Positions 48,229 to 64,000 of a stretch of 64,000 nt of DNA are shown one piece after another. The position numbers and the translations under genes are program-made. How positions within the stretch are numbered: position 1 is the first letter of the stretch; each line of letters starts with the position of its first letter. This DNA is from Clostridia bacterium (GTDB lineage Bacteria > Acidobacteriota > Terriglobia > Terriglobales > Acidobacteriaceae), in the NCBI GenBank assembly GCA_035561135.1, contig DATMYA010000044.1:1-64000 (forward strand), read 5' to 3'. Below the pieces are notes generated by a model. The model ran no database searches. It was not told the DNA's origin and saw only the letters and a list, made by a program, of their open reading frames with translations.

Positions 48229-48337
48229 GTGGCCCATGCAAGCCGGTGTTGCTTGCATGGGCATGAGTGCAATCGAATCCGCGCGCAGCGCGTCCAAGAC
48301 TCTCAACTGGGAACCGGCTATGAGAACCGGCAACCAT
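48229..48337. repeat. Dispersed palindromic repeat, copy 2
   Basis: Palindrome CCCATGCAAGC...GCTTGCATGGG at 48233-48261, then a conserved tail with GCGCGCAGCGCGTCCAAGAC, CAACTGGGAACCGGCT and GAGAACCGGCAA. Same order as the copies at 51066 and 53609. Confidence 0.75.
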
Positions 48338-51065: not shown

Positions 51066-51188
51066 GGTGGCCCATGCAAGCCGGGGTTGCTTGCATGGGG
51101 AATGCGCCCCGATGCATTCGAACCGTGCGCAGTGCGTCCAAGACTGCAACTGGGAATCGGCTACCGAGAACCGGCAATCGGAAAGAAA
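51066..51188. repeat. Dispersed palindromic repeat, copy 3
   Basis: Palindrome CCCATGCAAGC...GCTTGCATGGG at 51071-51099, then GCATTCGAACCGTGCGCAGT, GCGTCCAAGACTGCAACTGG and GAGAACCGGCAATCGGAAAG. Very close to copy 4 at 53609. Confidence 0.8.
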
Positions 51189-51399
51189 ATGGTCAGCCCT
51201 AGCAGGCGATCTTAGAACTTTCCTGTCATCCCGCTTCCCCGAACGCTACAGAGTGCCTTGAGCTCTGGATAGCTGCGTTGGGGAGTGGTGACATATGTGT
51301 TTGCCCGGCGGTTTTGGCACATATGGGAGTCATCGGAGTCATCCTTCAATGCCAGAACTCACTCGATGATAAAACAACAAAGAGGTGGAGATTGAAGAG

Positions 51400-51554
51400 A
51401 CAAAGACCCACATCTGCCAACGTCAGGCAGATGTAGGGCACCTTCGAGGTCTTCCTATCTCGAGATGTTGATTGGATAAGGGCGAAGGCTTCGCTTCGAT
51501 CCAGAGTAGTCCTTGGGTTTGAGGACTCAAGACCTCTGGGAAGAAGGAGCCTTC
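51400..51554 (+). ncRNA. IS110 left-end noncoding region, possible bridge RNA
   Basis: The DNA before the transposase contains a perfect 8-bp hairpin CATCTGCC/GGCAGATG (51411-51433) and further short inverted repeats near GAAGGCTTCGCTTC and CTTGGGTTTGAGGACTCAAG. IS110 elements encode a bridge RNA in this position that pairs with target and donor DNA. I infer this only from location and folding. The boundaries are uncertain. Confidence 0.4.
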
Positions 51555-52595
51555 ATGACTATTGTAGGCTGTGACTTTCATCCGAGCTGGCAACAAGTTG
51601 CGGTTTTTGATGCCGAAACGGGAGAGATATCCGAACTCAAGCTGGTCAACGGAGATGGTGAGGCGGAGCGGTTTTACCGTTCGCTATCTGCAGCGGCGTT
51701 GATTGGGATCGAAGCCTGCGGCAACAGTCAGTGGTTGATCGACTTGTTGTCGCAGCTGGGCCACGAAGTCTGGGTTGGCGATGCGGCGCAGATTCGCGCG
51801 AGCTACGTGCGCAAGCAGAAGACGGACAAGCGCGACGCGGCGCACATTCTGAAGCTGCTGGTGGAGGGGCGGTTTCCGCGGCTGTGGATGCCTTCGGCCG
51901 AGCAGCGTGACGTGCGGCAGCTGCTGATTCATCGCTACAAGCTGGTAGAGATCCGCACGCGGGTGAAGAACGGGTTGCAGCACCTGATGCTGAACCGCGG
52001 CGTGCAGAAGAAGCGCAAGCTGTGGAGCGAGGCGGGGCAGAAGGCGCTGCGCGAGCTTCCGCTGGAAGGCTGGGCAGCGCGGCGGCGCGAGGATTTGCTC
52101 GGTCTGCTGAAGAGCTTGGACGAGCAGATTGGCAAGCTCGACCAGGCGGCGGAGATGGCAGCCGCCAAGCACCCGCAGGCGCGCTTGCTGATGACGCAGC
52201 CGGGCGTGGGTCCGATCACCTCTCTGGCGTTTGCGGTGACCATCGGCGACCCGACGCGGTTCAAACGTGGCAAGCAGGTGGCCAGCTATCTCGGACTGAT
52301 TCCGCGCGAGTACAGCTCGGGCGGCCGGCAGCAGCTGGGTTCGATCAGCAAACAGGGGAACCGCTTCGTCCGCATGTTGCTGGTGGAAGCGGTTCACAAC
52401 GTCACGCGGTTGGATGAAGGGTTTCGTAAACAGTACAAGCATCGCTGTCACACGATGGAAAAAGGCGTGGCCAAAGTGGCGGCGGCGCGGCGGTTGGCGG
52501 TACGACTCTACTGGATGCTGCGCACCAACACAGCGTATCCGGAGATCGTTCATGTCGAGAGCAGCTCGCGGGTGGCCCTGGTCGGCGAAAGCTAG
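51555..52595 (+). CDS. IS110-family transposase (bridge-RNA-guided type)
   Basis: 346 residues from ATG 51555 with AAGGAG upstream. The N-terminal RuvC-like DEDD domain has IVGCDFHPSWQQVAVFD (D7), GIEACGNSQWLIDLL (E53), and DKRDAAHILKLL (D91, D94). The C-terminal domain has TQPGVGPITSLAFAVTIGDPTRF, ASYLGLIPREYSSGGRQQLG with the Ser/Gly segment at 254-257, and SISKQGNRFVRMLLVEA. Full length and apparently intact. A CATCCAGC/GCTGGATG hairpin lies just downstream (about 52622-52642). Confidence 0.93.
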   Translation: MTIVGCDFHPSWQQVAVFDAETGEISELKLVNGDGEAERFYRSLSAAALIGIEACGNSQWLIDLLSQLGHEVWVGDAAQIRASYVRKQKTDKRDAAHILKLLVEGRFPRLWMPSAEQRDVRQLLIHRYKLVEIRTRVKNGLQHLMLNRGVQKKRKLWSEAGQKALRELPLEGWAARRREDLLGLLKSLDEQIGKLDQAAEMAAAKHPQARLLMTQPGVGPITSLAFAVTIGDPTRFKRGKQVASYLGLIPREYSSGGRQQLGSISKQGNRFVRMLLVEAVHNVTRLDEGFRKQYKHRCHTMEKGVAKVAAARRLAVRLYWMLRTNTAYPEIVHVESSSRVALVGES

Positions 52596-52988: not shown

Positions 52989-53837
52989 GTGAAGAACGTC
53001 ATCGCTATCTTCGTTTTTCTGTTTGCCGTAGCGGCTTCAGGATGCCACCGCGCTTCACACTCTGAGTCGCAACCGCAAGTTGTTGACATCGAACAAGTCG
53101 TGGCGAGGCCCCAGTCGTACGCACACAAAGTGGTGACGGTACACGCATGCTTTGTCAGCAGCTTCGAACGGGTTGCGCTATTACCTTGCCAAGGTGCTGA
53201 CCTTGACTACTCCATCTGGGTCGAAGATGCAGAGATGCTTCATGCGATGCAGGAAACGAGCCTTCCCGCTATGCCACAGGCCGTTCCAGACGAGCTACGG
53301 ACAGCACCGAAAGCCGGGTTCGTCTTCAGGTACGACGAGGCAAAAATCAGAGCCGCTTGGAATAAACTGCGTCCCGAGAACTCTCCGAATCCTTACCGTG
53401 CGGAAGTTGTCGTTGTGGGCCAGTTCGAGACGGTTGAGCCACGCAGACCCGAGGTGTTGAAGAACGGCTTCGGGCACATGAACATGTACGCACACGAACT
53501 CATACTCGTGGACGTCCTCGCCGTTTCTCCGCTCTCGGGTACTACGCAGAAGTCATCCGAATCTACGCCCCCGAGTGGAGAACCCGTTGGGGAAGGGGAC
53601 GTAGCGCGCATCCCCATGCAAACTGGTGTTGCTTGCATGGGAAATGCCGCCCCGATGCATTCGAACCGTGCGCAGTGCGTCCAAGACTTTCAACTGGGGA
53701 CCGGCTACCGAGAACCGGCGACCGGAGAAAAGAAAATGGTCGGGACGGGCAGATTTGAACTGCCGACCCCTCGCACCCCAACAGAGGGCGCTCCGTTAAC
53801 AGCAGTGAGCCCGCGGCTCTTGAGCAACGCTATGTAG
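52989..53837 (+). CDS. Putative lipoprotein whose 3' end runs into a repeat and an antisense tRNA fragment
   Basis: GTG 52989 gives MKNVIAIFVFLFAVAASGCH with a lipobox ASGC. The first 190 residues look like a genuine secreted domain, with segments VVARPQSYAHKVVTVHACFVSSFERVALLPC and NPYRAEVVVVGQFETVEPRRPE. From about residue 205 the frame reads through dispersed repeat copy 4 and then the complement of the tRNA-Pro fragment (giving GTGRFELPTPRTP). The native C-terminus was therefore probably lost or replaced. Function unknown. Confidence 0.6.
   Translation: MKNVIAIFVFLFAVAASGCHRASHSESQPQVVDIEQVVARPQSYAHKVVTVHACFVSSFERVALLPCQGADLDYSIWVEDAEMLHAMQETSLPAMPQAVPDELRTAPKAGFVFRYDEAKIRAAWNKLRPENSPNPYRAEVVVVGQFETVEPRRPEVLKNGFGHMNMYAHELILVDVLAVSPLSGTTQKSSESTPPSGEPVGEGDVARIPMQTGVACMGNAAPMHSNRAQCVQDFQLGTGYREPATGEKKMVGTGRFELPTPRTPTEGAPLTAVSPRLLSNAM
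53609..53736. repeat. Dispersed palindromic repeat, copy 4
   Basis: Palindrome CCCATGCAAAC...GCTTGCATGGG at 53613-53641, then GCATTCGAACCGTGCGCAGT and the same tail as copy 3. It ends directly at the CCA end of the tRNA-Pro fragment. Confidence 0.8.
53737..53781 (-). other. 3' half of tRNA-Pro(GGG): attachment-site copy of an integrative element
   Basis: Read on the minus strand: anticodon loop TTGGGGT, 3' anticodon stem GCGAG, variable GGGTC, T arm GGCAG-TTCAAAT-CTGCC, acceptor CGTCCCG, then A and CCA. The matching 5' anticodon stem should be CTCGC but is CTCTG here, and no CGGGACG acceptor strand exists upstream, so only the 3' half is present. Such half copies mark one end of elements that insert into tRNA genes. 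The integrase gene lies 0.9 kb away on the element side. Confidence 0.75.
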
Positions 53838-53912
53838 TGCTATACCAAGCGATTACATGCGATGGGGCAAGAGAGCCGCGGACACCCCAAAAAGACCACT
53901 TACGGCACGTTT
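53782..53912. other. Element end with inverted repeat
   Basis: Contains CCGCGGCTCTTG and CAAGAGAGCCGCGG about 50 bases apart, an imperfect inverted repeat next to the attachment copy. It may be a transcript terminator for the minus-strand pair of small genes or part of the recombination site. Confidence 0.45.
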
Positions 53913-54209
53913 TTATGCTTGTCCCTTTGAAGATTCCTTTGAGGGTTTCAGCTTGTCAAATCCCAACGTGAGCACTCCGTTCGTCTGAACCATCACCACC
54001 ACATTCCCATGGTGTGCTGCGACTTTCGCGACGGACCCAATGAGTGCCAATTCTTCCGGATCGTATTCGTCACCTATCGCTTGCTCTTGGATGACGAGTA
54101 TCGATTTTCCCTGTCGAATCTTCTCCAACGACCCGGGATACCTTTCTTCCAACTGTTGCTCAGCCTGCGCAAGATAGTCAGCGGCAGTGTACAGCTTCTT
54201 TTCTCGCAT
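53913..54209 (-). CDS. Small protein of unknown function beside the excisionase-like gene
   Basis: 98 residues, soluble: an N-terminal helix-rich part (AADYLAQAEQQLEERYPGSLEKIRQ) and a beta-rich part (SILVIQEQAIGDEYD, VVVMVQTNGVLTLGFDKL). It begins immediately after the stop codon of the upstream excisionase-like gene, so the two are one operon. No family recognised. Confidence 0.65.
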   Translation of the reverse strand: MREKKLYTAADYLAQAEQQLEERYPGSLEKIRQGKSILVIQEQAIGDEYDPEELALIGSVAKVAAHHGNVVVMVQTNGVLTLGFDKLKPSKESSKGQA

Positions 54210-54491
54210 CTATTTCTCCGGCTTTATCAGATTGCTCTCAATTAAGGCGACAAGTGACCGCTCGGTAATTCGTACGCAACGACCAATACGTACGACTTCG
54301 ATCTTCTCGCGACGTAGAATCCAAGAACGGATCGTTGCAGGTTTCACACCCAGGCGGGCAGCTGCTTGTGGAACGCTGAGAAGCGAGCCCACGTCTCTGT
54401 TCTCAGGTGGTTCGAAAGTCGGTTGCACCTCGGGTTGTTTTCGCGGGGACCCAGACGTTGTGATTCTGTCCTGCCCCTTCTTATGTTCCAT
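54210..54491 (-). CDS. Excisionase-like helix-turn-helix protein
   Basis: 93 residues. The C-terminal half, SVPQAAARLGVKPATIRSWILRREKIEVVRIGRCVRITERSLVALIE, is the HTH_17/excisionase-type winged helix. The N-terminal half is polar and unstructured. Divergent from the integrase gene, as recombination directionality factors often are. It may control excision or transcription of the element. Confidence 0.75.
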   Translation of the reverse strand: MEHKKGQDRITTSGSPRKQPEVQPTFEPPENRDVGSLLSVPQAAARLGVKPATIRSWILRREKIEVVRIGRCVRITERSLVALIESNLIKPEK

Positions 54492-54571
54492 ATCTTTCCT
54501 TTCGAATGTTGTTGACGTTTAGGAACGGCTGAACTGCGCCATTCCTCTGCTTGCGAGAATCCGCGCGAGTG

Positions 54572-54600
54572 TTGACGAGCTACAGCTCGCGTGGCACACT
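54572..54600 (+). promoter_or_regulatory. Promoter candidate for the integrase
   Basis: TTGACG at 54572-54577, 17 bases, CACACT at 54595-54600 (weak -10). A second TTGACG occurs at about 54515. The 165-base space between the divergent genes probably holds their control sites. Confidence 0.35.
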
Positions 54601-54656
54601 GATGTCCTTCCCTCCCCAAGTGAAGGCGGACGACTATTCCCAAAAGGGAGATCCGC

Positions 54657-55886
54657 ATGTCACTTTTCAAGTACCGCAAGAAGGGCAACTACCATTACGA
54701 CTTCCAATTCAAGGGCAAAACGTACCGAGGCACACTTGGCACGTCGAAGTTGACGGTCGCACGGGATCGCCTACGTGCAATCAGGAACCGCATCGAAGAC
54801 GCTTATTACGGAACGAACCGAGGCGGGATAGACAAGACTTTCGAAGAAGCTGCCAAGGAGTACCAGGCTTCAAGAAAGCACGCTGTCTCGGATTCGATGA
54901 TGGACATCGAGTTCTACAGTCTTCAGCACCTCCTGCCCGTGTTTGGGAAGATGATGCTGTCCCAGATAACGGACAAGGATCTGAAGGCGTATCAGCAGGC
55001 CAGGCTTGCAGAACGCGCTGCTCCTGCCACCATAAACCTCGAGTACGATGCCTTCCGCGGCATCATGAAGATGTTCAAGTGGTGGGATGGTATTCGCGAC
55101 AATGTCCGCAAGCTGCCGGTGGGCGACTTTCACGGAATCGCGCTATCTCCTGATGAGGCTTGGTGGTTAGTTAGAGTTTGCGCAAAGAGCGTCGCTCGCT
55201 ATTTGGCTGTTGTCGTCGTGCTCGCACTGTCCACGACGATGCGTGACGAGGAGATTCGCCTGCTTCGTTGGTGGCAAGTTAATCTTGTCGGCTGCTATCT
55301 GGAGGTGCGCAAAAGCAAAACCAAACACGGAAGTGGAAGAGTTATTCCACTAAACCCGTTTGCTATGCGGGCGATGACTTGGTGGGCCAACCAGTTCCCG
55401 GATCGGCATCAGGATGACTACGTGTTCCCCCACGAGCGATCATCCATGGGCCGCGATGGTAAAGCGCGCCGCAAAACAATTCCCACACGCGCGCTGGGTT
55501 CATGGAAGAAGTGTTGGCAGACTGCGAAGAAGAGGGCCGGAGTGAAGTGCAGATTTCACGACCTCCGTCACACGGCGATCACGTGGATGTTGGAGGCGGG
55601 CATCCCCTACGCGATTGTGGCGGGGATCGCCGGTTGGAGTGCCAGTCAGGCCATCCACATGGCGAAGAGGTATGGCCATATCGGTCAGCGACCGTACCTT
55701 GATGCGGTCTGGGCCATTCAGGACAGGTTTGGTGTACTGGCTACACCGCCGCTCCTCGCACCAGCAGATTGCCCGCTAGACGACGCCGAATTCGAAGTTG
55801 AGGAGAGTCCGCATTCAGAGGCATGGACAGACCTCGATGAATGCGCGGATCTAATCGATGCTTCCCGGGGTGAACTCTGCGCTTAG
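54657..55886 (+). CDS. int: Tyrosine recombinase / integrase
   Basis: 409 residues, site-specific recombinase of the element. N-terminal DNA-binding part with FKYRKKGNYHYDFQFKGKTYRGTLGTSKLTVARDRL, a SAM-like core-binding domain (TFEEAAKEYQASRKHAVSDS to MKMFKWWDGI), then the catalytic domain: STTMRDEEIRLLRWWQV with the first Arg, the Lys-containing KSKTKHGSGRVIPL, RFHDLRHTAITWMLEAG with His-x-x-Arg, and AKRYGHIG with the likely Tyr. The second His position is occupied within GWSASQAIHMA. The tRNA-Pro fragment nearby suggests its target site. Confidence 0.92.
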   Translation: MSLFKYRKKGNYHYDFQFKGKTYRGTLGTSKLTVARDRLRAIRNRIEDAYYGTNRGGIDKTFEEAAKEYQASRKHAVSDSMMDIEFYSLQHLLPVFGKMMLSQITDKDLKAYQQARLAERAAPATINLEYDAFRGIMKMFKWWDGIRDNVRKLPVGDFHGIALSPDEAWWLVRVCAKSVARYLAVVVVLALSTTMRDEEIRLLRWWQVNLVGCYLEVRKSKTKHGSGRVIPLNPFAMRAMTWWANQFPDRHQDDYVFPHERSSMGRDGKARRKTIPTRALGSWKKCWQTAKKRAGVKCRFHDLRHTAITWMLEAGIPYAIVAGIAGWSASQAIHMAKRYGHIGQRPYLDAVWAIQDRFGVLATPPLLAPADCPLDDAEFEVEESPHSEAWTDLDECADLIDASRGELCA

Positions 55887-55947
55887 AGTGGGTGTGGGCA
55901 CAGCACCAATACAATGCCCTTGCGCTGGGAGATTGGTTCTGTGCCCT

Positions 55948-57015
55948 CTAGCTGCTGGATTTAGCAACCTTCGTCTGTTTTCGTGTTGATTTGGTCGGCG
56001 TTCCTGACATCTCGACTGCAGCCTCAGCCAAGAGGTGTGGCTGCAAGAAATCGAACCTCACTCGTGACGCGTCAATGTAGTCCTGCTTGATCTCGACTGA
56101 CTTCCATCGACGGCCGAGCATTTCAGCAACGGCACCTGTCGTATTGCTGCCCGCAAAAGGATCAATCACTAGGTCGTTCGCTGACGTCAGAAATCTAATG
56201 AAGAACTCGACTAACTTCGCCGGCATGCGTGCCGGGTGGAGAGGGACGTCGTTCTTCCGGCAGTGTTCTTGGTAACCATCATTGCTACCCGTGTTCGCCA
56301 GTGCGAACACGTTGCCCGGTTGCGAGGTTATCTCTTCCACGACACTCGCAATGGATGCGGCCAGAACGTTTGGAGGAATTGCACCGCGATTGTTCGTCAG
56401 GAACGACTTCTCCCCAATCTTGAATTCAGATGGACGATGACCGGGGTTATACGTTCCGCTCTCTAGCAGCTTCTTCATGCTGTCGCTGTACGAGGTCAGC
56501 ACGTTTCTGTTATCCGCCTTGGGTCGTGGGGTGGAAGAGAGCCACCAAACTCGAGTGAACGCATCTTTCACGCGACAACGTTCTACGTTCACCCATTGCG
56601 CGGGACTTGGCAGTCTAGCGGGGTTGTAGCAAACGAACTCTTGGCATAAATGAAACTTACCCTTCCGCTTGAACGCTAGCAGCGCCTCCAGGGGCAACGT
56701 TGACATAGTGGGCTTCCCCGGGACCCACCCGTTCCCAAGCTCAATGACAATCGAACCATCCGGCTTGAGTAAGTCCGCGAACAGCGGCGCCAATGAACTT
56801 AGCCACTGAATGTATTCCCGCCCGGTGAGGTTTCCGTACTTCTTCTTCCGGTTCAGGACAAATGGAGGAGAAGTAAAGATCAATTGAGCCGAGTGCTTGA
56901 AACCAGCACGGTTGAGCTTCGCGAGGATTTCCTTCGCGTCGCCTGCGTACATCTCGCCCGACGGCGTAGAGTAAGCGGGCTCCAACCTGATGATCTTCTT
57001 CTTATGTTTCTTCAT
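55948..57015 (-). CDS. Beta-class DNA methyltransferase
   Basis: 355 residues. Motif IV comes first (IFTSPPF, residues 48-52), and the SAM-binding motif I late (DPFAGSNTTG, residues 285-294, followed by GRRWKSVEIKQDY). This order and the TSPP form fit beta-class N4-cytosine or N6-adenine methyltransferases such as those of type II systems. A target-recognition region lies between. No restriction endonuclease is visible nearby, so it may be a solitary enzyme or a component of the system that includes the GHKL ATPase. The stop end is free. Its start overlaps the small regulator gene by 14 bases. Confidence 0.88.
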   Translation of the reverse strand: MKKHKKKIIRLEPAYSTPSGEMYAGDAKEILAKLNRAGFKHSAQLIFTSPPFVLNRKKKYGNLTGREYIQWLSSLAPLFADLLKPDGSIVIELGNGWVPGKPTMSTLPLEALLAFKRKGKFHLCQEFVCYNPARLPSPAQWVNVERCRVKDAFTRVWWLSSTPRPKADNRNVLTSYSDSMKKLLESGTYNPGHRPSEFKIGEKSFLTNNRGAIPPNVLAASIASVVEEITSQPGNVFALANTGSNDGYQEHCRKNDVPLHPARMPAKLVEFFIRFLTSANDLVIDPFAGSNTTGAVAEMLGRRWKSVEIKQDYIDASRVRFDFLQPHLLAEAAVEMSGTPTKSTRKQTKVAKSSS

Positions 57016-57196
57016 TGCGTGGGAACCGAAGCGGAATCTGCTTATCCCTGTGATCCTCGACGAAGGTCGCGATCGCGATGCGAACGACCTGCGCCAACTT
57101 CATGCTGTTCAGCTCGGCAATTCGCTCCAAGACCTGCCGTTGGCCTGGAGCCAGCGTGACCGTAAGTCGATCGCCTTCGCTAACTTGTAATGCCAT
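57002..57196 (-). CDS. Small ribbon-helix-helix-like regulator
   Basis: 64 residues from ATG 57196. The core GDRLTVTLAPGQRQVLERIAELNSMKLAQVVRIAIATFVEDH matches the ribbon-helix-helix/CopG pattern: a beta strand followed by two helices. An ATG nine codons earlier is possible, but the direct repeats at 57205-57232 occupy that region. It overlaps the methyltransferase start and probably regulates it. Confidence 0.75.
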   Translation of the reverse strand: MALQVSEGDRLTVTLAPGQRQVLERIAELNSMKLAQVVRIAIATFVEDHRDKQIPLRFPRNEET

Positions 57197-57204
57197 GATG
57201 AAAA

Positions 57205-57234
57205 CCTCATCAGGTTGCATCATTTTGCATCACA
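57205..57234. promoter_or_regulatory. Three 10-bp-spaced direct repeats, candidate operator
   Basis: CCTCATCAGG, TTGCATCATT and TTGCATCACA follow each other with exactly 10-base spacing, so the repeats face the same side of the helix. They lie just upstream of the ribbon-helix-helix gene, a location and spacing expected for cooperative binding and autorepression by such a protein. Confidence 0.55.
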
Positions 57235-57278
57235 AGTGGCGACAGCTCAAGTGTGAAATATGGGTGAGTGAAATAGGC

Positions 57279-57503
57279 TTACTTCGACTTCAGACGCCAG
57301 ACGCTATTCCGCTTGCCGTCACACACCGCCATCACCTTTAGTTCCCTCCGAAGCTGATGCATCCATTCCAGGTCAGTGTCACGCAGCTTCTCTCGGTGCG
57401 GGCATGGCGTTGACTGGCAATCTTGTGGCTGGCGCTCACGCGCTAACGTGTACAGCTCTCGAACGGTCGCAGGCAATTCATCGGTTATGAGTTTCTCAAA
57501 CAT
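57279..57503 (-). CDS. Small hypothetical protein
   Basis: 74 residues: FEKLITDELPATVRELYTLARERQPQDC, a CxxxxCPHR segment, then DLEWMHQLRRELKVMAVCDGKRNSVWRLKSK. It resembles a winged helix ending in a beta wing, suggesting DNA binding. No family recognised. It is divergent from the GHKL gene and could be its regulator. Confidence 0.55.
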   Translation of the reverse strand: MFEKLITDELPATVRELYTLARERQPQDCQSTPCPHREKLRDTDLEWMHQLRRELKVMAVCDGKRNSVWRLKSK

Positions 57504-57577
57504 GGCGTAGCAATCCTTCTTCCCATCTTCAGTACCGCCGAGTGCTGGTATGTGCGATCAGTTACGATCGTTTGTGG

Positions 57578-57583
57578 TATGAT
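57578..57583 (+). promoter_or_regulatory. -10-like TATGAT upstream of the GHKL gene
   Basis: TATGAT preceded by GTGG, about 97 bases before the GHKL start codon. No clear -35 at 17 bases. Confidence 0.3.
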
Positions 57584-57679
57584 GATGCTGGCAGCGTGCG
57601 AAAGCAAGCTGTTCGCTTCACGGCCAGTCCGGCGGTGAGGCGTGTATTTGCCCAGTCAGGGCGTACATGGAGATTAACG

Positions 57680-60454
57680 ATGAAGCACCCTACCGGGGCT
57701 GTTCCTACCCCTGCGTCTGCCCCAACGCAAAATAAGAAGGCAATTCCGCCTTCGTTCCCGTCTCTCTCGAAGCTGCCAACCACCCCGGAAGAACTGTTCC
57801 GTTCTTTGGCGCTGACCGTCACCAGTTCCGTATCGCAGCCGCATCCCAATGGCAAGTCCACGAAGAAGCAGGACTACACGTTACCTTGGGCAGGCTTCGG
57901 AGGGTGGCGCGACGCACGTGCACGGTTGAATCACTTCGAGGAGCATTTCAAAGGCAACATTGGGTGGAAGCCGTTCAACGACTCGACTTCGAATGACGGT
58001 CCGATGAGCCTGAATTCCATTCCAGGCCGGGCTTTTATCGAGCGCGTGACTAACGAAGGCGACGCAAACCTTGAGGCGAAGGCTGTTACGCATACCGGCC
58101 CGATGCCGATGTCGCCCGTTGCTGCCGCTGAGAAGTGGTTTGGTCTGAGCACCGAAGCACTCTCTGTCGGACTGACGAACGATCAGGTTCTCGATCTGGC
58201 GAAAAGTACCGTCACGGTGGCTGGGTGGGTGGGAGATCCTAGCGATCCGAAGGATCTCATCTTTGACGCGCGCGACTACGGCATTGGGTTGACCAGTGAG
58301 GAAATGCCCAGCACCATCTTGTCGCTCAACCGCGGAAACAAGAAGAGCAAGCACTACTTGACTGGCAAACATGGTCAAGGTGCGTCCAGCACTTACCAGT
58401 ACACCGACCTCACACTGATCGCCGCTCGCAAGGTTGGTTCCAAGAAGGTGGCGTTCACGCTTGTAGAGGCCAAATGGAATCTGGCGGTCGGCGACAAGAC
58501 GCCCACCTACCGTTATCTCGTGATCGACGGCAAGATCCCCGAAATCGAGATCGCCGAAGCAGAATTTAAAGCAGGCACCCTCGTGCGTCACATCGGCTAC
58601 AACGCAGCCGCGTTGTTCAACCCCGTCGGTGAAAACAGCCTGTATGGCTTGCTCATGCGCTCGCTCGCTGAACCTCTGTTCCCCGTCTGGTTGGAGATCT
58701 TTTCTCTCCGTCCTTCCAAGGCTGAGGGGTACCCCACGTTTCCGGGTTACCGGCGCTATGGTCGCGTGATCCGTGGCACTGTCAATGCACTCGAACGCGC
58801 AAACGCGAATTCCTTGAAAGCGGGGGCCGAGAGCCAGGTAGCAGCGGAGGAAGCGGACGCCGAGGGCACCGAGAGCAACGAGGACGATCCGGACGAAAAG
58901 ACGGGGACGAAGATCCTCCATCGCAACTCCGAGTACTACGAGCTGCCGAAGTGGGACTTCGGCGGCCGCGAAGGCGTTGGCGAACTGGGTCGCGTGAAGA
59001 TCACGTACTGGGTCGTTGATCCCGCCGGCCGCAGTTCGCAGGGCGTGTTGCGCAATTGGGTTGATCCCGACAAGACTATCCTCATGACCCTCGATGGCCA
59101 GACGCATGCAGAAGAGAGTCGTGCGATCATCACTGGCCAAACGGGAGCTAAGTTGTGGGCCGTCGGCAAGTACATGATCGTGCAGATCGACTGCAACGAC
59201 CTGGATCCGCGCGCGAAGTACGAGATGTTCACCTCTACGCGTGAGCATGCGAAGGAAACGCCCATCAAGAAGATGATTCTCGAGGAGCTGGTCCGGCGTC
59301 TCGGGTTCGATGCGAAGCTGCAAGATCTCAACGTGAAGCTCGCTGCCGCCGACATTGGCAACAAGAACGGCGACAATCCGGAGAACATTTCTTCGCTCAT
59401 CAAGAAGTACTTGAAAGCGGCTGGAATTAACTTCGAGCAGCTCACGCGTAAGGTAGAGAAGTGGGTGACGGTCGAGGAGGAAAAGAAGGTTCCGGTCGGC
59501 CCCAAGGAGCCGCTTCCAATCGAGGCGCACGAACCCCCCACGTTCATCCGGTGGAAGTTCGCGGGAACGGAAGCGAAGCTGCACCCCGGTCAGCGTTACA
59601 GCTTCGTGTTCGAGACCGACGCAGCCCCTTCGTATTGGAAGCCCGAAGACCCGGTGAATTCGAAGATCAAGGTGACCGCGCACGAGGTGCGGTACGTCGG
59701 ATCGGGTGACATGAAGGGCGGACGCGTCCGTTGTCACTTCGAGTGCGCCGACGACGCCCCCGTTGGCACCAAGGCCTTCATCCAGGTTCAATTGGAATAC
59801 GCGCCTGGCGCTGCCATTACCAAGGTACTTCCGATCGAGATCGTTGCGAAGCCCGAGGCAAAAGCGAAGCCGAGCGGGAAGAAGAACGAGAAGGAAGAGA
59901 ACGATGACAGTGACACGACGAAGGTCATCAAGGTGAAGATTCGTAAGAAGGACTTCACTGAAGTTGACATCCCCGTCGTGAAGCCCATTCCGGTAAAGAC
60001 TACCGACACCGCTTGGGGGACTCTGGGGTGGCCGCATGATCCGCAGCGCGTCGGGTTCTCGATCCGCTCGCTGATGAACAAGATCCACCTGTACTACAAC
60101 GCCGAATTCCCTCCGTTCCTCGACCTGCGGCATCGCATGTCGAAGAAGAGCCTCGAAGATGAGTTCATTCGCCGCTATGAACTCAAGCTCATCCTGCACA
60201 CCATCTTCACTCTGAACTACGAGTTCGTGGATGAGGATGACTTCCCGGAGGATCAGCGGAAGCGCGTACGCGACTTGCTCTGTGCCACCGCTGAGAGTTT
60301 GGCGTTGGCAACCAAGTCCGAGCTTGAGATTGAAGCCAAGCTCAAGAGTGAAGAATCCACTCCGCTCGAAACCGCTGTCGCTGCGGACCTTCAGCAAGCT
60401 GCGGTTCCCGAGCCGGCTGAAACTGTGAACGGAAATGGATCGGCAGTGATGTAG
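57680..60454 (+). CDS. Large GHKL-type ATPase of the integrative element
   Basis: 924 residues from ATG 57680. The GHKL (gyrase/Hsp90/kinase/MutL) ATP site is complete: N box ERVTNEGDA (residues 121-129), G1 box FDARDYGIGL (195-204), and G2 box LTGKHGQGASS (227-237). The rest has a middle segment with TSTREHAKETPIKKMILEEL, a beta-rich region (WKFAGTEAKLHPGQRYSFVFE to AFIQVQLEYA) that looks like a beta-sandwich, a charged linker, and a helical C-terminus. Not a histidine kinase or MutL. Large GHKL proteins of this kind often sit in phage-defence regions. It is followed by a small partner gene and cas9. Function unproven. Confidence 0.8.
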   Translation: MKHPTGAVPTPASAPTQNKKAIPPSFPSLSKLPTTPEELFRSLALTVTSSVSQPHPNGKSTKKQDYTLPWAGFGGWRDARARLNHFEEHFKGNIGWKPFNDSTSNDGPMSLNSIPGRAFIERVTNEGDANLEAKAVTHTGPMPMSPVAAAEKWFGLSTEALSVGLTNDQVLDLAKSTVTVAGWVGDPSDPKDLIFDARDYGIGLTSEEMPSTILSLNRGNKKSKHYLTGKHGQGASSTYQYTDLTLIAARKVGSKKVAFTLVEAKWNLAVGDKTPTYRYLVIDGKIPEIEIAEAEFKAGTLVRHIGYNAAALFNPVGENSLYGLLMRSLAEPLFPVWLEIFSLRPSKAEGYPTFPGYRRYGRVIRGTVNALERANANSLKAGAESQVAAEEADAEGTESNEDDPDEKTGTKILHRNSEYYELPKWDFGGREGVGELGRVKITYWVVDPAGRSSQGVLRNWVDPDKTILMTLDGQTHAEESRAIITGQTGAKLWAVGKYMIVQIDCNDLDPRAKYEMFTSTREHAKETPIKKMILEELVRRLGFDAKLQDLNVKLAAADIGNKNGDNPENISSLIKKYLKAAGINFEQLTRKVEKWVTVEEEKKVPVGPKEPLPIEAHEPPTFIRWKFAGTEAKLHPGQRYSFVFETDAAPSYWKPEDPVNSKIKVTAHEVRYVGSGDMKGGRVRCHFECADDAPVGTKAFIQVQLEYAPGAAITKVLPIEIVAKPEAKAKPSGKKNEKEENDDSDTTKVIKVKIRKKDFTEVDIPVVKPIPVKTTDTAWGTLGWPHDPQRVGFSIRSLMNKIHLYYNAEFPPFLDLRHRMSKKSLEDEFIRRYELKLILHTIFTLNYEFVDEDDFPEDQRKRVRDLLCATAESLALATKSELEIEAKLKSEESTPLETAVAADLQQAAVPEPAETVNGNGSAVM

Positions 60455-60516
60455 TGGATGTGAGGCGCCTCAGGTGAATCCTGGGGCGCCATTTCTTCAA
60501 GGGAGAGCGAACCAGG

Positions 60517-60798
60517 ATGGCGAAATCAAAGAAGCCGGCGAAGTGGAACAAAGTAACGCTGGACATGCCGAATCGGCAGTTGGCGCTGTACACGGGCGCG
60601 AAGGTTCAACACGCGCTACAAGAAGTGACAATGAACATGGACGTCTATCAAGGTGTTCGTCTAGGCGAGGTCCTCGAAGCGGTGTACCAGCAGGGTTTGA
60701 AGGATGGCCGTCGCGAGATCATCGAACAGTTCGAGCAGAACATCACGAAGAAGGTTAAGTACCTCCCTCCTGGGCAGCCCCGCAAGAACCGGAAGTAG
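60517..60798 (+). CDS. Small partner protein downstream of the GHKL ATPase
   Basis: 93 residues with an AGGG-type ribosome site. Basic N-terminus (MAKSKKPAKWNKVTLDMPNRQ), a predicted helix YTGAKVQHALQEVTMNMDVYQGVRLGEVLEAVYQQGL, then GRREIIEQFEQNITKKVKY and a basic tail. The central part resembles a ribbon-helix-helix or small helical adaptor. Located 62 bases after the GHKL gene on the same strand, so likely cotranscribed and acting with it. No family recognised. Confidence 0.7.
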   Translation: MAKSKKPAKWNKVTLDMPNRQLALYTGAKVQHALQEVTMNMDVYQGVRLGEVLEAVYQQGLKDGRREIIEQFEQNITKKVKYLPPGQPRKNRK

Positions 60799-61044
60799 CT
60801 TCCTCGGACTCCTTTGAAAAGCCGTCGCAAGGCATTTGCGGCCAATTGCGACTGATTTTAGGCGTCTTTGCAAGCTATTGAAATGAATGGTCGGCTTTAG
60901 AGGACGATTTTAGAACTTTTCTATCTCCGGGTTGCGAAGCCTCTCAGATTGCTCCTTTGACCGCGTGCACTGAGCCGTCGGACAAGCATCTCGAAACTCA
61001 CGTCTGCGATAGTAGATAAACCGTTCGGTTCGGTCGGCAAAGAA
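60799..61044. other. Intergenic region between partner gene and the candidate tracrRNA
   Basis: No gene. GTCGCAA/TTGCGAC (about 60824-60852) forms a hairpin after the partner gene. Positions 60886-60925 resemble 51188-51227 (about 31 of 40 bases identical by eye). Also scanned for CRISPR repeats: none found. Confidence 0.5.
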
Positions 61045-61144
61045 GAACGCCCCGTCGCCGGGGCGTTCAGAGGTCGCTCGTTGAGCGGAGCCTTACGACG
61101 AAAGCTTACTGAGAATAGCCAAGCAACCGCCGCTCAAGTACACT
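61045..61144 (-). ncRNA. Candidate tracrRNA divergent from cas9
   Basis: On the minus strand, TTGACA (61179-61174), 17 bases, AAGACT (61156-61151) form a promoter-like pair. The predicted transcript starts near 61144 and has an unstructured 5' part (about 61140-61107), then three adjacent hairpins: AGCTTT/AAGGCT, CGCTC/GAGCG with loop AAC, and GAACGCCCCG/CGGGGCGTTC, followed by TTCTTT. This is the layout of a type II tracrRNA: anti-repeat, nexus-like hairpins, terminator. Without a CRISPR repeat in view, pairing cannot be checked. Confidence 0.6.
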
Positions 61145-61150
61145 GGTGCG

Positions 61151-61179
61151 AGTCTTTCCTCCCCCATACTTTTTGTCAA
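61151..61179 (-). promoter_or_regulatory. Promoter candidate of the tracrRNA
   Basis: Perfect -35 TTGACA and a weaker -10 AAGACT at 17-base spacing. It lies within 40 bases of the cas9 start codon, so the two transcripts begin back to back. Confidence 0.5.
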
Positions 61180-61189
61180 GGCCTTTCTT

Positions 61190-64000
61190 ATGACTAGGAA
61201 TGTGGCCATACCCGAGTACACTCTCGGACTTGACCTTGGTTCAGCGTCTATCGGCTGGGCTCTCGTTGCACTCGATTCCTTCCACCGTCCGAACGGACTG
61301 CTCAAAGCGGGTGTTCGAATCTTTGAGCCCGGAGTGGAAGGTTCCACCCTTGATATTGAACAAGGCAAGGATAAGTCCAAAGCCGTCGCTAGACGTGAAG
61401 CAAGATTGCACCGTCGTCAACTACGACGGCGCGCGGCTCGGCAGCGAGACTTGTTTCTTCTACTACAACGCAAAGGATTGTTGCCCGCCGCTTCCGACAC
61501 GTCGGTCGATTTGTCCTGTCAACGCCATCAGGTCCTCAACGAATTGGACCAAGTTTTGGCGGCGGCGCTTCGCCATGGCATTGCCCCACAAGACTCCGCA
61601 GCGGTTGAGCAGGCACTTCCCTACTATTTGCGTAAGCTTGCCCTCGATAAGAAGCTGACCGAACCCGAACTCGGGCGAATCCTATATCACCTGATACAGC
61701 GGCGCGGCTTTAAGTCGAATCGCAGGGAAGGTAAGAAACAAAAGGACGACATTGGCCAAGTTAAGGCCAGCATCTCTGAGTTGTCTGCGCGGATGGCCTC
61801 GTCGGGTGCTAGGACGCTTGGCGAGTATTTTGCAGGACTGAATCCACACGAGCGACGAATCCGAAACCGCTGGACCGCTCGCAGCATGTACGAGCAAGAG
61901 TTCAGTCTTATCTGGCAAGTTCAACAGTCCCACTGGCCGGAATTGTTAAACGAGGAATTCAAGGCGCAGTTGTGCGAGCTTCTTTTCTTCCAGCGCCCCA
62001 TCGCAGCACAGGCGCACTTGATCGGATTCTGCGAACTGGAGCCAAACGAGCGCCGTGCTTCATGGGCCTCACTGGAGGCGCAGAGATTTCGGATACTTCA
62101 AAAGGTGAATGATTTAGCGGTAGTTGCTCCAGGCTCGTTGGCAGAGACGAAGTTATCGACCAGCGAGCGGGAAACAGTTTATGCGCTACTCGATCAGGAA
62201 GGCGACCAAACATTTGCCGCGCTTCGGAAGAAATTGGGTATCAACAAAGCTCACTTCAATTTGGAGCGCGGCGGCGAAAAGAAGCTTCGAGGTAATCGCA
62301 CAAACGCGATGATGCGCACGGTTTTCCGCGAGTCATGGCAAGAGCTGACGTCCGAAACTCAGGCCGAAATCGTCGATCGCTGGGCTGTCACTGAATCAGA
62401 GGACGAAATCGTCGAGTGGCTCAAGAGAGAGTGGGCTCTCGATGAGGTCGCAGCGCGCAACCTCGCAGACAACCACCCCGAAGACGGCTACTGCAGCCTA
62501 TCGCTCAAGGCACTTCGCAAGGTGATACCGCTGTTGGAAGGCGGCAAGTCCTATGAAACGGTTCGCAGAAACCTTTATCCAGACCTATTCAAGCAAAAGA
62601 CCCCACTTGATGAATTGCCCATAGTCAGAAAAGCGCTTCCGACACTGCGGAACCCTGCCGTCGAGCGAGCTTTAACGGAGCTTCGCAAGGTTGTAAATGC
62701 GATTGTAGGCGAGTACGGAAAGCCATACGAAATCCGAATCGAGATGGCTCGTGAGCTTAGAAAATCCCGCAAAGAGAGAGAGGAGGCAACGCGACGGATC
62801 CGCGCGAATGAGAGGCAACGCATTGAAGCGAAGAAGAAGATTTTCGATGAATGCCGAATCGACAACCCCTCTCGTGCAGACATTGAAAAGGCACTTCTTT
62901 TTGATGAATGCGGCGGCATCTGTCCATATACCGGCAAATCCATTGAGTTCAGCTCCCTTTTTGGAGACTCGCAGTTTGACGTTGAACACATCATCCCTTT
63001 GAGCCGTTGCCCAGACGATTCTTTCGTTAACAAGACTCTCTGTTATCACGAGGAGAACCGATCAAGGAAGCGAGGCCGCACGCCTTGGGAGGCATACAGC
63101 GCAGACGAAGAACAGTGGGACTTGATTGTCCAACGTGTACGAAGTTGGCAACCCGGAAACGAGGCAAAGCTCCGACGCTTCCAGCTATGCAGCCTGGAAA
63201 AGCTGGAAGAGTTTACGCAACGACAGATGAACGATACCCGTTACACGACCCGACTCGCTGTCGACCTATTGAGCACACTTTATGGAGGTCGAGATATCCA
63301 GTGCGGCGACGGCACGAGTCGCAGAGTAATACACGCTACCACGGGAATGGTAACGGCAACTCTGCGTAAATCGTGGGGATTGGAAGCGATTCTGCGCGAG
63401 GCTGCTCCCGCAGCAAGCTCTGAACGCCGTGGGAAACCACGTACCGATCATCGCCACCACGCCATAGATGCAATCACCATCGCGCTCACGAGTCAGGCCA
63501 TGGTTCAACGCATGAGCGTTGCGGCCGCTGGCGCGCCAGGATGGCAGCAAGACCGTCGGGTATTTCGTGGCATGGAGTCCCCGTGGCCCAATTTTGTGGA
63601 CTCCATCCGCCCGGCGTTTGAGCGCATGACCATTTCCCATCGACCGGAGCACAAGTTGAGTGGTGCCTTCCACGATGAAACGAACTATGGCAAACCCCGT
63701 CTCGAAGGCAAGAAATCCTACGTTCATATTCGCAAGCCGATTACGGCATTAAGCGAGAAGGACATTGCCAACATCGTTGATCCCGTAGTGCGCCGAGCGG
63801 TTGAGGAGAAGTTCGTTCTTCTTGGTGGCGACCTCAGTCGCTGCGAGGCAACGAACGACTGGCCTAGTCTGCCCGCTACCAGTGGTCGTATTCCGATCAG
63901 AAAAGCACGCATCCGCAAGGTTCTCAATGTGTCCACAATTGGCAAAGGGAACCGCGAACGTTTTGTCATGCCATCCAGCAATCATCACGTCGAGATATTT
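61190..64000 (+). CDS. cas9: Cas9 RNA-guided endonuclease, 3' end beyond the window
   Basis: The frame from ATG 61190 is open to the last base: 937 codons and no stop. RuvC-I: YTLGLDLGSASIGWALV (D15). Arg-rich bridge helix at about residues 60-95 (AVARREARLHRRQLRRRAAR). RuvC-II: YEIRIEMARELRKS (E518). HNH: FDVEHIIPLSRCPDDSFVNKTLC with H600, N614 and N623; the H-N spacing of 23 equals that of SpCas9 H840-N863. RuvC-III: RTDHRHHAIDAITIAL with H757 and D760. All catalytic residues are present. HNH and RuvC-III positions suggest a total near 1,050-1,100 residues, a compact II-C-like enzyme. The PAM-interacting end is mostly outside the window. AAGG upstream is a weak ribosome site. Confidence 0.95.
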   Translation, partial: MTRNVAIPEYTLGLDLGSASIGWALVALDSFHRPNGLLKAGVRIFEPGVEGSTLDIEQGKDKSKAVARREARLHRRQLRRRAARQRDLFLLLQRKGLLPAASDTSVDLSCQRHQVLNELDQVLAAALRHGIAPQDSAAVEQALPYYLRKLALDKKLTEPELGRILYHLIQRRGFKSNRREGKKQKDDIGQVKASISELSARMASSGARTLGEYFAGLNPHERRIRNRWTARSMYEQEFSLIWQVQQSHWPELLNEEFKAQLCELLFFQRPIAAQAHLIGFCELEPNERRASWASLEAQRFRILQKVNDLAVVAPGSLAETKLSTSERETVYALLDQEGDQTFAALRKKLGINKAHFNLERGGEKKLRGNRTNAMMRTVFRESWQELTSETQAEIVDRWAVTESEDEIVEWLKREWALDEVAARNLADNHPEDGYCSLSLKALRKVIPLLEGGKSYETVRRNLYPDLFKQKTPLDELPIVRKALPTLRNPAVERALTELRKVVNAIVGEYGKPYEIRIEMARELRKSRKEREEATRRIRANERQRIEAKKKIFDECRIDNPSRADIEKALLFDECGGICPYTGKSIEFSSLFGDSQFDVEHIIPLSRCPDDSFVNKTLCYHEENRSRKRGRTPWEAYSADEEQWDLIVQRVRSWQPGNEAKLRRFQLCSLEKLEEFTQRQMNDTRYTTRLAVDLLSTLYGGRDIQCGDGTSRRVIHATTGMVTATLRKSWGLEAILREAAPAASSERRGKPRTDHRHHAIDAITIALTSQAMVQRMSVAAAGAPGWQQDRRVFRGMESPWPNFVDSIRPAFERMTISHRPEHKLSGAFHDETNYGKPRLEGKKSYVHIRKPITALSEKDIANIVDPVVRRAVEEKFVLLGGDLSRCEATNDWPSLPATSGRIPIRKARIRKVLNVSTIGKGNRERFVMPSSNHHVEIF

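Follow-up and report, generated by a model that had tools for sequence, protein, structure and literature searches.

What carries the cas9 gene that runs off the right edge of the first 64,000 bases of contig DATMYA010000044.1 (assembly GCA_035561135.1, Acidobacteriaceae), and does this gene stand alone? The initial annotation of this stretch, here called the window, described a Cas9 on an integrative element inserted at tRNA-Pro(GGG), with no cas1-cas2 genes or clustered regularly interspaced short palindromic repeats (CRISPR) array next to it. The window is the start of a longer contig (C44; 76,836 bases), and the remaining 12.8 kb lie to its right. The features described below indicate that a complete type II-C CRISPR-Cas9 system is probably the cargo of a 21.3-kb island at the 3' end of tRNA-Pro(GGG). 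The source genome (4.19 Mb in 95 contigs) is rated 100% complete with 1.5% contamination. Positions are those of C44 unless another contig is named, and positions in stretch L005 are converted to them by adding 60,000.

An intact tRNA-Pro(GGG) is present at 75051-75127(-) (ARAGORN), on the right side and the minus strand and with the same 3' end, as the initial annotation had predicted. The tRNA 3' half reported at the left end (attL, 53735-53781(-)) has the orientation given to it and is identical to 75049-75095. This 47-bp match is the longest exact one between the two attachment regions and spans tRNA nucleotides 33-77 plus two flanking bases, with one copy lying within the intact tRNA. The direct repeats, one of which completes the tRNA 3' end, enclose 21,314 bp. 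Inside them and close to one end, as in other tRNA-gene islands, are a tyrosine integrase gene (intY, 54657-55886(+); Pfam, PHROG integrase) and an excisionase-like gene for an HTH_17 DNA-binding protein (54210-54491(-); Pfam, 2.7e-10). Homologues of intY are located at tRNA-Pro in two relatives, G131 and G123, where they are bounded by duplications of 47 and 48 bp, respectively, and accompanied by homologues of the excisionase-like gene; the 47-bp duplication of the island is this same tyrosine-integrase footprint. The matching tRNA and the same-sized duplications around related integrases support the placement of Cas9 on an integrative element at this tRNA.

The absence of the other CRISPR-Cas genes, by contrast, is an artefact of the window edge, which falls inside cas9 (61190-64402(+)) at position 64000. 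The cas1 (64362-65300; Cas1_II in PADLOC) and cas2 (65288-65626; Cas2_II in PADLOC) genes follow directly on the same contig, in frames that overlap each other and with best scores to type II models, and behind them is an array at 65676-70519. No csn2 or cas4 interrupts or extends this contiguous cas9-cas1-cas2-array order, which is that of type II-C loci. The open reading frame (ORF) from 61190, described earlier as intact-looking, is indeed intact and encodes a protein of 1070 amino acids (aa) with RuvC_III, HNH, and Cas9 alpha-helical-lobe domains (Pfam) and a score of 676 bits to TIGR01865. Its catalytic columns, including D15, E518, H600, H757, and D760, are invariant across nine relatives, and both the RuvC and HNH nuclease motifs are intact, as expected for type II-C. 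The array has 74 repeats of 36 bp, all identical, separated by 73 spacers of 29 to 31 nucleotides (nt), each of them unique, and the repeat has no further copy anywhere in the source genome.

A putative gene for a trans-activating CRISPR RNA (tracrRNA), a feature not recorded in the initial annotation, lies between a 93-aa ORF and cas9 and is divergent from the latter (61036-61145(-)). Its anti-repeat is complementary to the entire repeat, again in keeping with type II-C, and it has stem-loops and a GC-rich terminator hairpin. The same structure is located upstream of cas9 in all nine loci examined (9/9), and a T-to-G change in the repeat of one relative (G096) is mirrored in the tracrRNA of that genome. 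Rfam families stay below their gathering scores at this position. In the part of the anti-repeat opposite the 5' end of the CRISPR RNA (crRNA) repeat there are only C-to-U differences; because these preserve G-U pairing, a minus-strand reading is favored, suggesting that the crRNAs are read from the minus strand. The plus-strand orientation of tracrRNA and crRNA was ruled out, since it is the minus strand that gives a full-length anti-repeat, G-U-preserving changes, and a terminator. Judged by its sequence features, the locus qualifies as a complete type II-C CRISPR-Cas system. The nearest solved structures to this Cas9 are a group of PDB Cas9 chains that we take to be NmeCas9. The island system resembles those of the NmeCas9 group in its cas9-cas1-cas2-array order, its 36-bp repeats, the tracrRNA beside cas9, and the Cas9 sequence; however, the island Cas9 reaches only about 261 bits to the closest structure.

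The right part of the island, which lies outside the window and was not covered by the initial annotation, contains a second recombinase. A gene for a large serine recombinase (serR, 73632-75116; L005 13632-15116) ends inside the tRNA-Pro gene and is preceded by u360 (70552-71634(-)), the gene after the array, which has no family match, two small ORFs (71685-72456), a Rep_trans-like gene (rep, 72449-73417), and a 64-aa ORF (73441-73635). G031 has these genes in the same order (u360, two small ORFs, rep, small ORF, serR, and tRNA), also at the tRNA-Pro/yggX site; yggX (Fe2+-trafficking protein, 75311-75583(-)) is the right flank of the island. The Rep_trans-like protein scores 27.1 bits against a cut-off of 29.6, only one of five relatives matches Rep_trans, and no PDB relative was found by profile. 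Relatives of serR with 53% to 68% identity are present in several other genomes of the family, and a serR contig scan gave one distant match. Most of the relatives end inside tRNA-Pro (GGG or CGG) and one in tRNA-Arg. A second copy could be detected for two of them, and the duplications there are only 30 bp (decayed) and 23 bp. Two unrelated kinds of element are found at tRNA-Pro among the relatives, one with a tyrosine integrase (47- to 48-bp duplications) and one with a serine recombinase (23 to 30 bp). Site-specific serine-recombinase integrative and mobilizable elements (IMEs) have been described as disrupting dispensable genes, not as using tRNA 3' ends (PMC5704250).

The best history that we can offer for the island is that intY made the present outer ends by a crossover in the anticodon-loop region, as its relatives would have done at the same tRNA, and that the serine-recombinase module, the second kind of element using this tRNA, joined the island by stacking. 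A serine-recombinase remnant directly outside the intY element of G131 shows that stacking at tRNA-Pro has happened elsewhere. Several points weigh against this history of a single mobile island. Local alignment against shuffled sequences gave no significant sign of the internal tRNA copy that stacking should leave; a candidate near 60887 (score 13.5) was rejected, being inside the shuffled null range. There are two recombinases, and either enzyme could be the acting one. An empty site in the same genus was not available, the genomes compared belonging to other genera. In one of these, G021, tRNA-Pro(GGG) directly adjoins yggX without a recombinase, which does speak for an inserted island, and in G037 the same two genes adjoin at a contig start. 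The G021 site lacks synteny with the island on its left side, however, and since G021 is also of another genus, it represents an empty site by gene order only. Neither conjugation genes nor a relaxase were recognized in the 53.7- to 75.1-kb interval, so the island is not an integrative and conjugative element (ICE), and its transfer would need help. It may be an IME, a kind of element that pairs its own integrase with a mobilization gene (such as a MobT/Rep_trans relaxase), with the sub-threshold Rep_trans-like gene as the candidate. Finally, a credible target was found for only 1 of the 73 spacers.

A serious rival explanation, which we consider possible though not probable, is that two independent elements stand in tandem: on the left, from attL to about 60.8 kb, one with an integrase and with the methyltransferase and GHKL-like genes described below as its cargo, and on the right one with a serine recombinase and the CRISPR-Cas genes as its cargo. 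The island would then never have moved as one unit, and the serR element would be the mobile carrier of Cas9. Elements of the serR type do stand alone at tRNA-Pro, as in G031, where cargo of the element's own separates u360 from the left end; in G096 the CRISPR-Cas genes are located directly beside serR-rep without intY, and the intY element of G131 shares its tRNA with a stacked serR remnant. The 3' ends of tRNA genes are targets of tyrosine-recombinase IMEs, and a tandem ICE-IME composite at a tRNA gene has been recorded (PMC5704250). This documented accretion, IME_Sag2603_tRNAlys, resembles the island in that two integration modules share the 3' end of one tRNA; however, both of its integrases are of the tyrosine type and an internal attachment site is present (PMC5704250), whereas the island has one large serine recombinase and no internal attachment site was found in it. 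Against a tandem origin, no tRNA 3' copy separates the two parts, and the sole perfect duplication spans the whole 21.3 kb.

The distribution of cas9 in the family is consistent with mobility. It is present in 12 of 200 genomes, scattered over genera and in differing neighborhoods, rather than as a fixed block in all relatives, an outcome that the initial annotation had named as fatal to its proposal. In G096, a member of another genus, tRNA-Pro(GGG) is followed by serR, a small ORF, rep, and then cas9-cas1-cas2 with a 27-repeat array. This CRISPR system lies beside the serR element and probably within it; no distal attachment copy scored above shuffled sequences in G096. The G096 Cas9 groups with that of G008 in the Cas9 tree (support 100/99), away from the island Cas9, and joint descent of the island and G096 proteins is rejected (p-AU 0.017) in a test of nine sequences, some with long branches. 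It is likely, as far as these sequences can tell, that the island and the G096 element acquired their Cas9 systems separately. More tentatively, a serR-driven, tRNA-directed lineage of elements in this family, in which the last ~20 residues of the recombinase are encoded by the target tRNA gene, may have captured complete, adapting Cas9 systems at least twice and may compete or merge with the tyrosine-integrase kind at tRNA-Pro.

The scattered occurrence of cas9 also bears on the idea that the CRISPR-Cas genes are an old immobile chromosomal locus alongside which elements, or remnants of them, have landed. In its favor, the family also has II-C loci with neither kind of recombinase beside them. 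However, the restriction of cas9 to so few genomes, the location of the island locus between two perfect tRNA copies, and the full length of both recombinase genes make it improbable.

What the system may be used for can be asked of its spacers, which were concatenated and compared with 398 genomes of the family. The sole credible match outside the array is that of spacer 65 to another contig of the same genome (C51 102867-102895; 29 of 30 bases), in a gene of a prophage tail region. The surrounding C51 region (~94.9-125 kb; L155-L157) is identified as a prophage because it encodes an integrase along with tape-measure, major tail, tail-terminator, neck, and head-closure proteins. When spacer 65 is read in the direction of the crRNA, it differs from its target only at the position adjoining the side of the protospacer-adjacent motif; judging from this one case, an escape mutation would fit. 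Weak matches in relatives (E ~1e-3 per genome across the 398 genomes) are at chance level. No credible spacer target was found in phage and plasmid collections, including PLSDB, related viral contigs gave matches of only 13 to 17 nt, an exact 23-mer of spacer 65 is absent from IMG/VR, and the tRNA-Pro elements of relatives that were compared have no spacer match.

Because its one assignable spacer targets a prophage, phage defense is the favored use of the Cas9 system. In this scenario the minus strand would give rise to the array transcript and the tracrRNA, a complex of Cas9 with crRNA:tracrRNA would cut phage DNA in the cell, and the island would protect its host and thereby itself. The initial annotation had offered defense or competition between elements, and of these the second is unsupported by the 73 spacers, 72 of which have no assigned target. 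A main use as a weapon against rival mobile elements, as has been proposed for CampyICE1, is suggested by the use of the tRNA-Pro site by two kinds of element and by the CampyICE1 spacers, which mostly target plasmids (PMC8743540). It is nevertheless unlikely for the island, given that no credible match to PLSDB plasmids or to tRNA-Pro elements of relatives was obtained and that the only good target is a prophage gene. An assembly or binning artefact joining unrelated sequence deserves hardly any credence, since, although the genome is a draft of 95 contigs and tRNA repeats can break assemblies, as seems to be the case in G037, a single contig covers both flanks, the G+C content of the Cas region is like that of the left flank, and the array is linked to its host by the spacer that matches the prophage. 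A self-targeting spacer is present in another genome, G054, where spacer 6 of the type II-C array (L086) agrees at 31 of 31 positions with part of a gene on the chromosome (L182 9979-10009) that is located next to a response-regulator-like gene.

Complete Cas9 systems carried by integrative elements are known but uncommon. The closest precedent is CampyICE1, an ICE at tRNA-Met with a type II-C Cas9, without cas1-cas2, and with spacers directed mostly against plasmids (PMC8743540). Both are integrative elements at a tRNA gene that carry a type II-C Cas9 and have integrase or recombinase genes at the end. However, CampyICE1 is 70 to 129 kb long and conjugative and has three short arrays (PMC8743540), whereas the island has 21 kb, no conjugation genes, a full cas9-cas1-cas2 set, a single 74-repeat array with one phage-directed spacer, and an additional large serine recombinase. 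With cas1-cas2 present and neither conjugation genes nor a credible plasmid-directed spacer, the island is not a member of the CampyICE1 group. Mobile elements and genomic islands of Vibrio have also been described as carriers of CRISPR-Cas systems (PMC6360697); to judge from the part of that account considered here, those islands are similar in carrying CRISPR-Cas as cargo and belong to a different host group. Two aspects are unusual here, the two recombinase classes at one tRNA and the recurrence in another genus. The Cas9 that seemed to be an orphan is not one; the island lengthens the short list of CRISPR systems carried by integrative elements by one that is small, complete, and apparently adapting and whose boundary is clear, and the further case in another genus was probably acquired separately. 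With two unrelated recombinase classes at one tRNA gene, one can now ask which of the enzymes transfers immune systems between bacteria.

The left part of the island contains several further genes. A 98-aa protein encoded next to attL (53913-54209(-)) has a homologue in the tRNA-Pro element of G131 (tblastn, L111, 33% identity). The reported DNA methyltransferase is an N6/N4 enzyme (55948-57015(-); Pfam, MTase_II in PADLOC) without a recognized restriction partner, and a 73-aa protein encoded at 57002-57223(-) has weak, sub-threshold resemblance to antitoxin or repressor families. A 970-aa protein (57542-60454(+)) had been called a GHKL ATPase. Motifs read by eye (NEGDAN, DYGIGL, and GKHGQGAS) are compatible with this label; however, no match was found in Pfam, NCBIfam, or PADLOC, and the label is unproven. 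A single-sequence fold was of no use (mean confidence, pLDDT, of 36). The protein is nearly absent from the family, with one distant match besides itself in 200 genomes; remote relatives are encoded on Ensifer, Hymenobacter, and Devosia plasmids, and no viral relative was found. It is perhaps a defense gene. The 93-aa ORF downstream of it (60517-60798(+)) has no family match. In G131, the intY element contains, at L111 5507-7607, a gene resembling, by eye, a cytosine DNA methyltransferase, together with a neighbor of unknown function; these are perhaps restriction-modification cargo.

The ends of the serine recombinases (L005 13632-15116 and relatives in L079, L089, L090, L092-L096, L119, and L120; L184 4995-6494) are also distinctive. 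All 11 aligned proteins end in the tail ..KPFD..EWSGRxDLNxRPxxP..; in 10 of the 10 with an intact tRNA, the target tRNA gene encodes this tail in antisense. A homologue on a Legionella adelaidensis plasmid has the same ending, in tRNA-Asn and beside a tyrosine recombinase. Excision would change the end of the serR protein from ASALPG to QRALR.

In the window, a dispersed repeat of ~100 to 130 bp is present in three copies that are 80% to 89% identical (48233-48335, 51071-51194, and 53613-53741). The third copy directly adjoins attL, and an IS110 transposase gene (51513-52595) sits between the last two.

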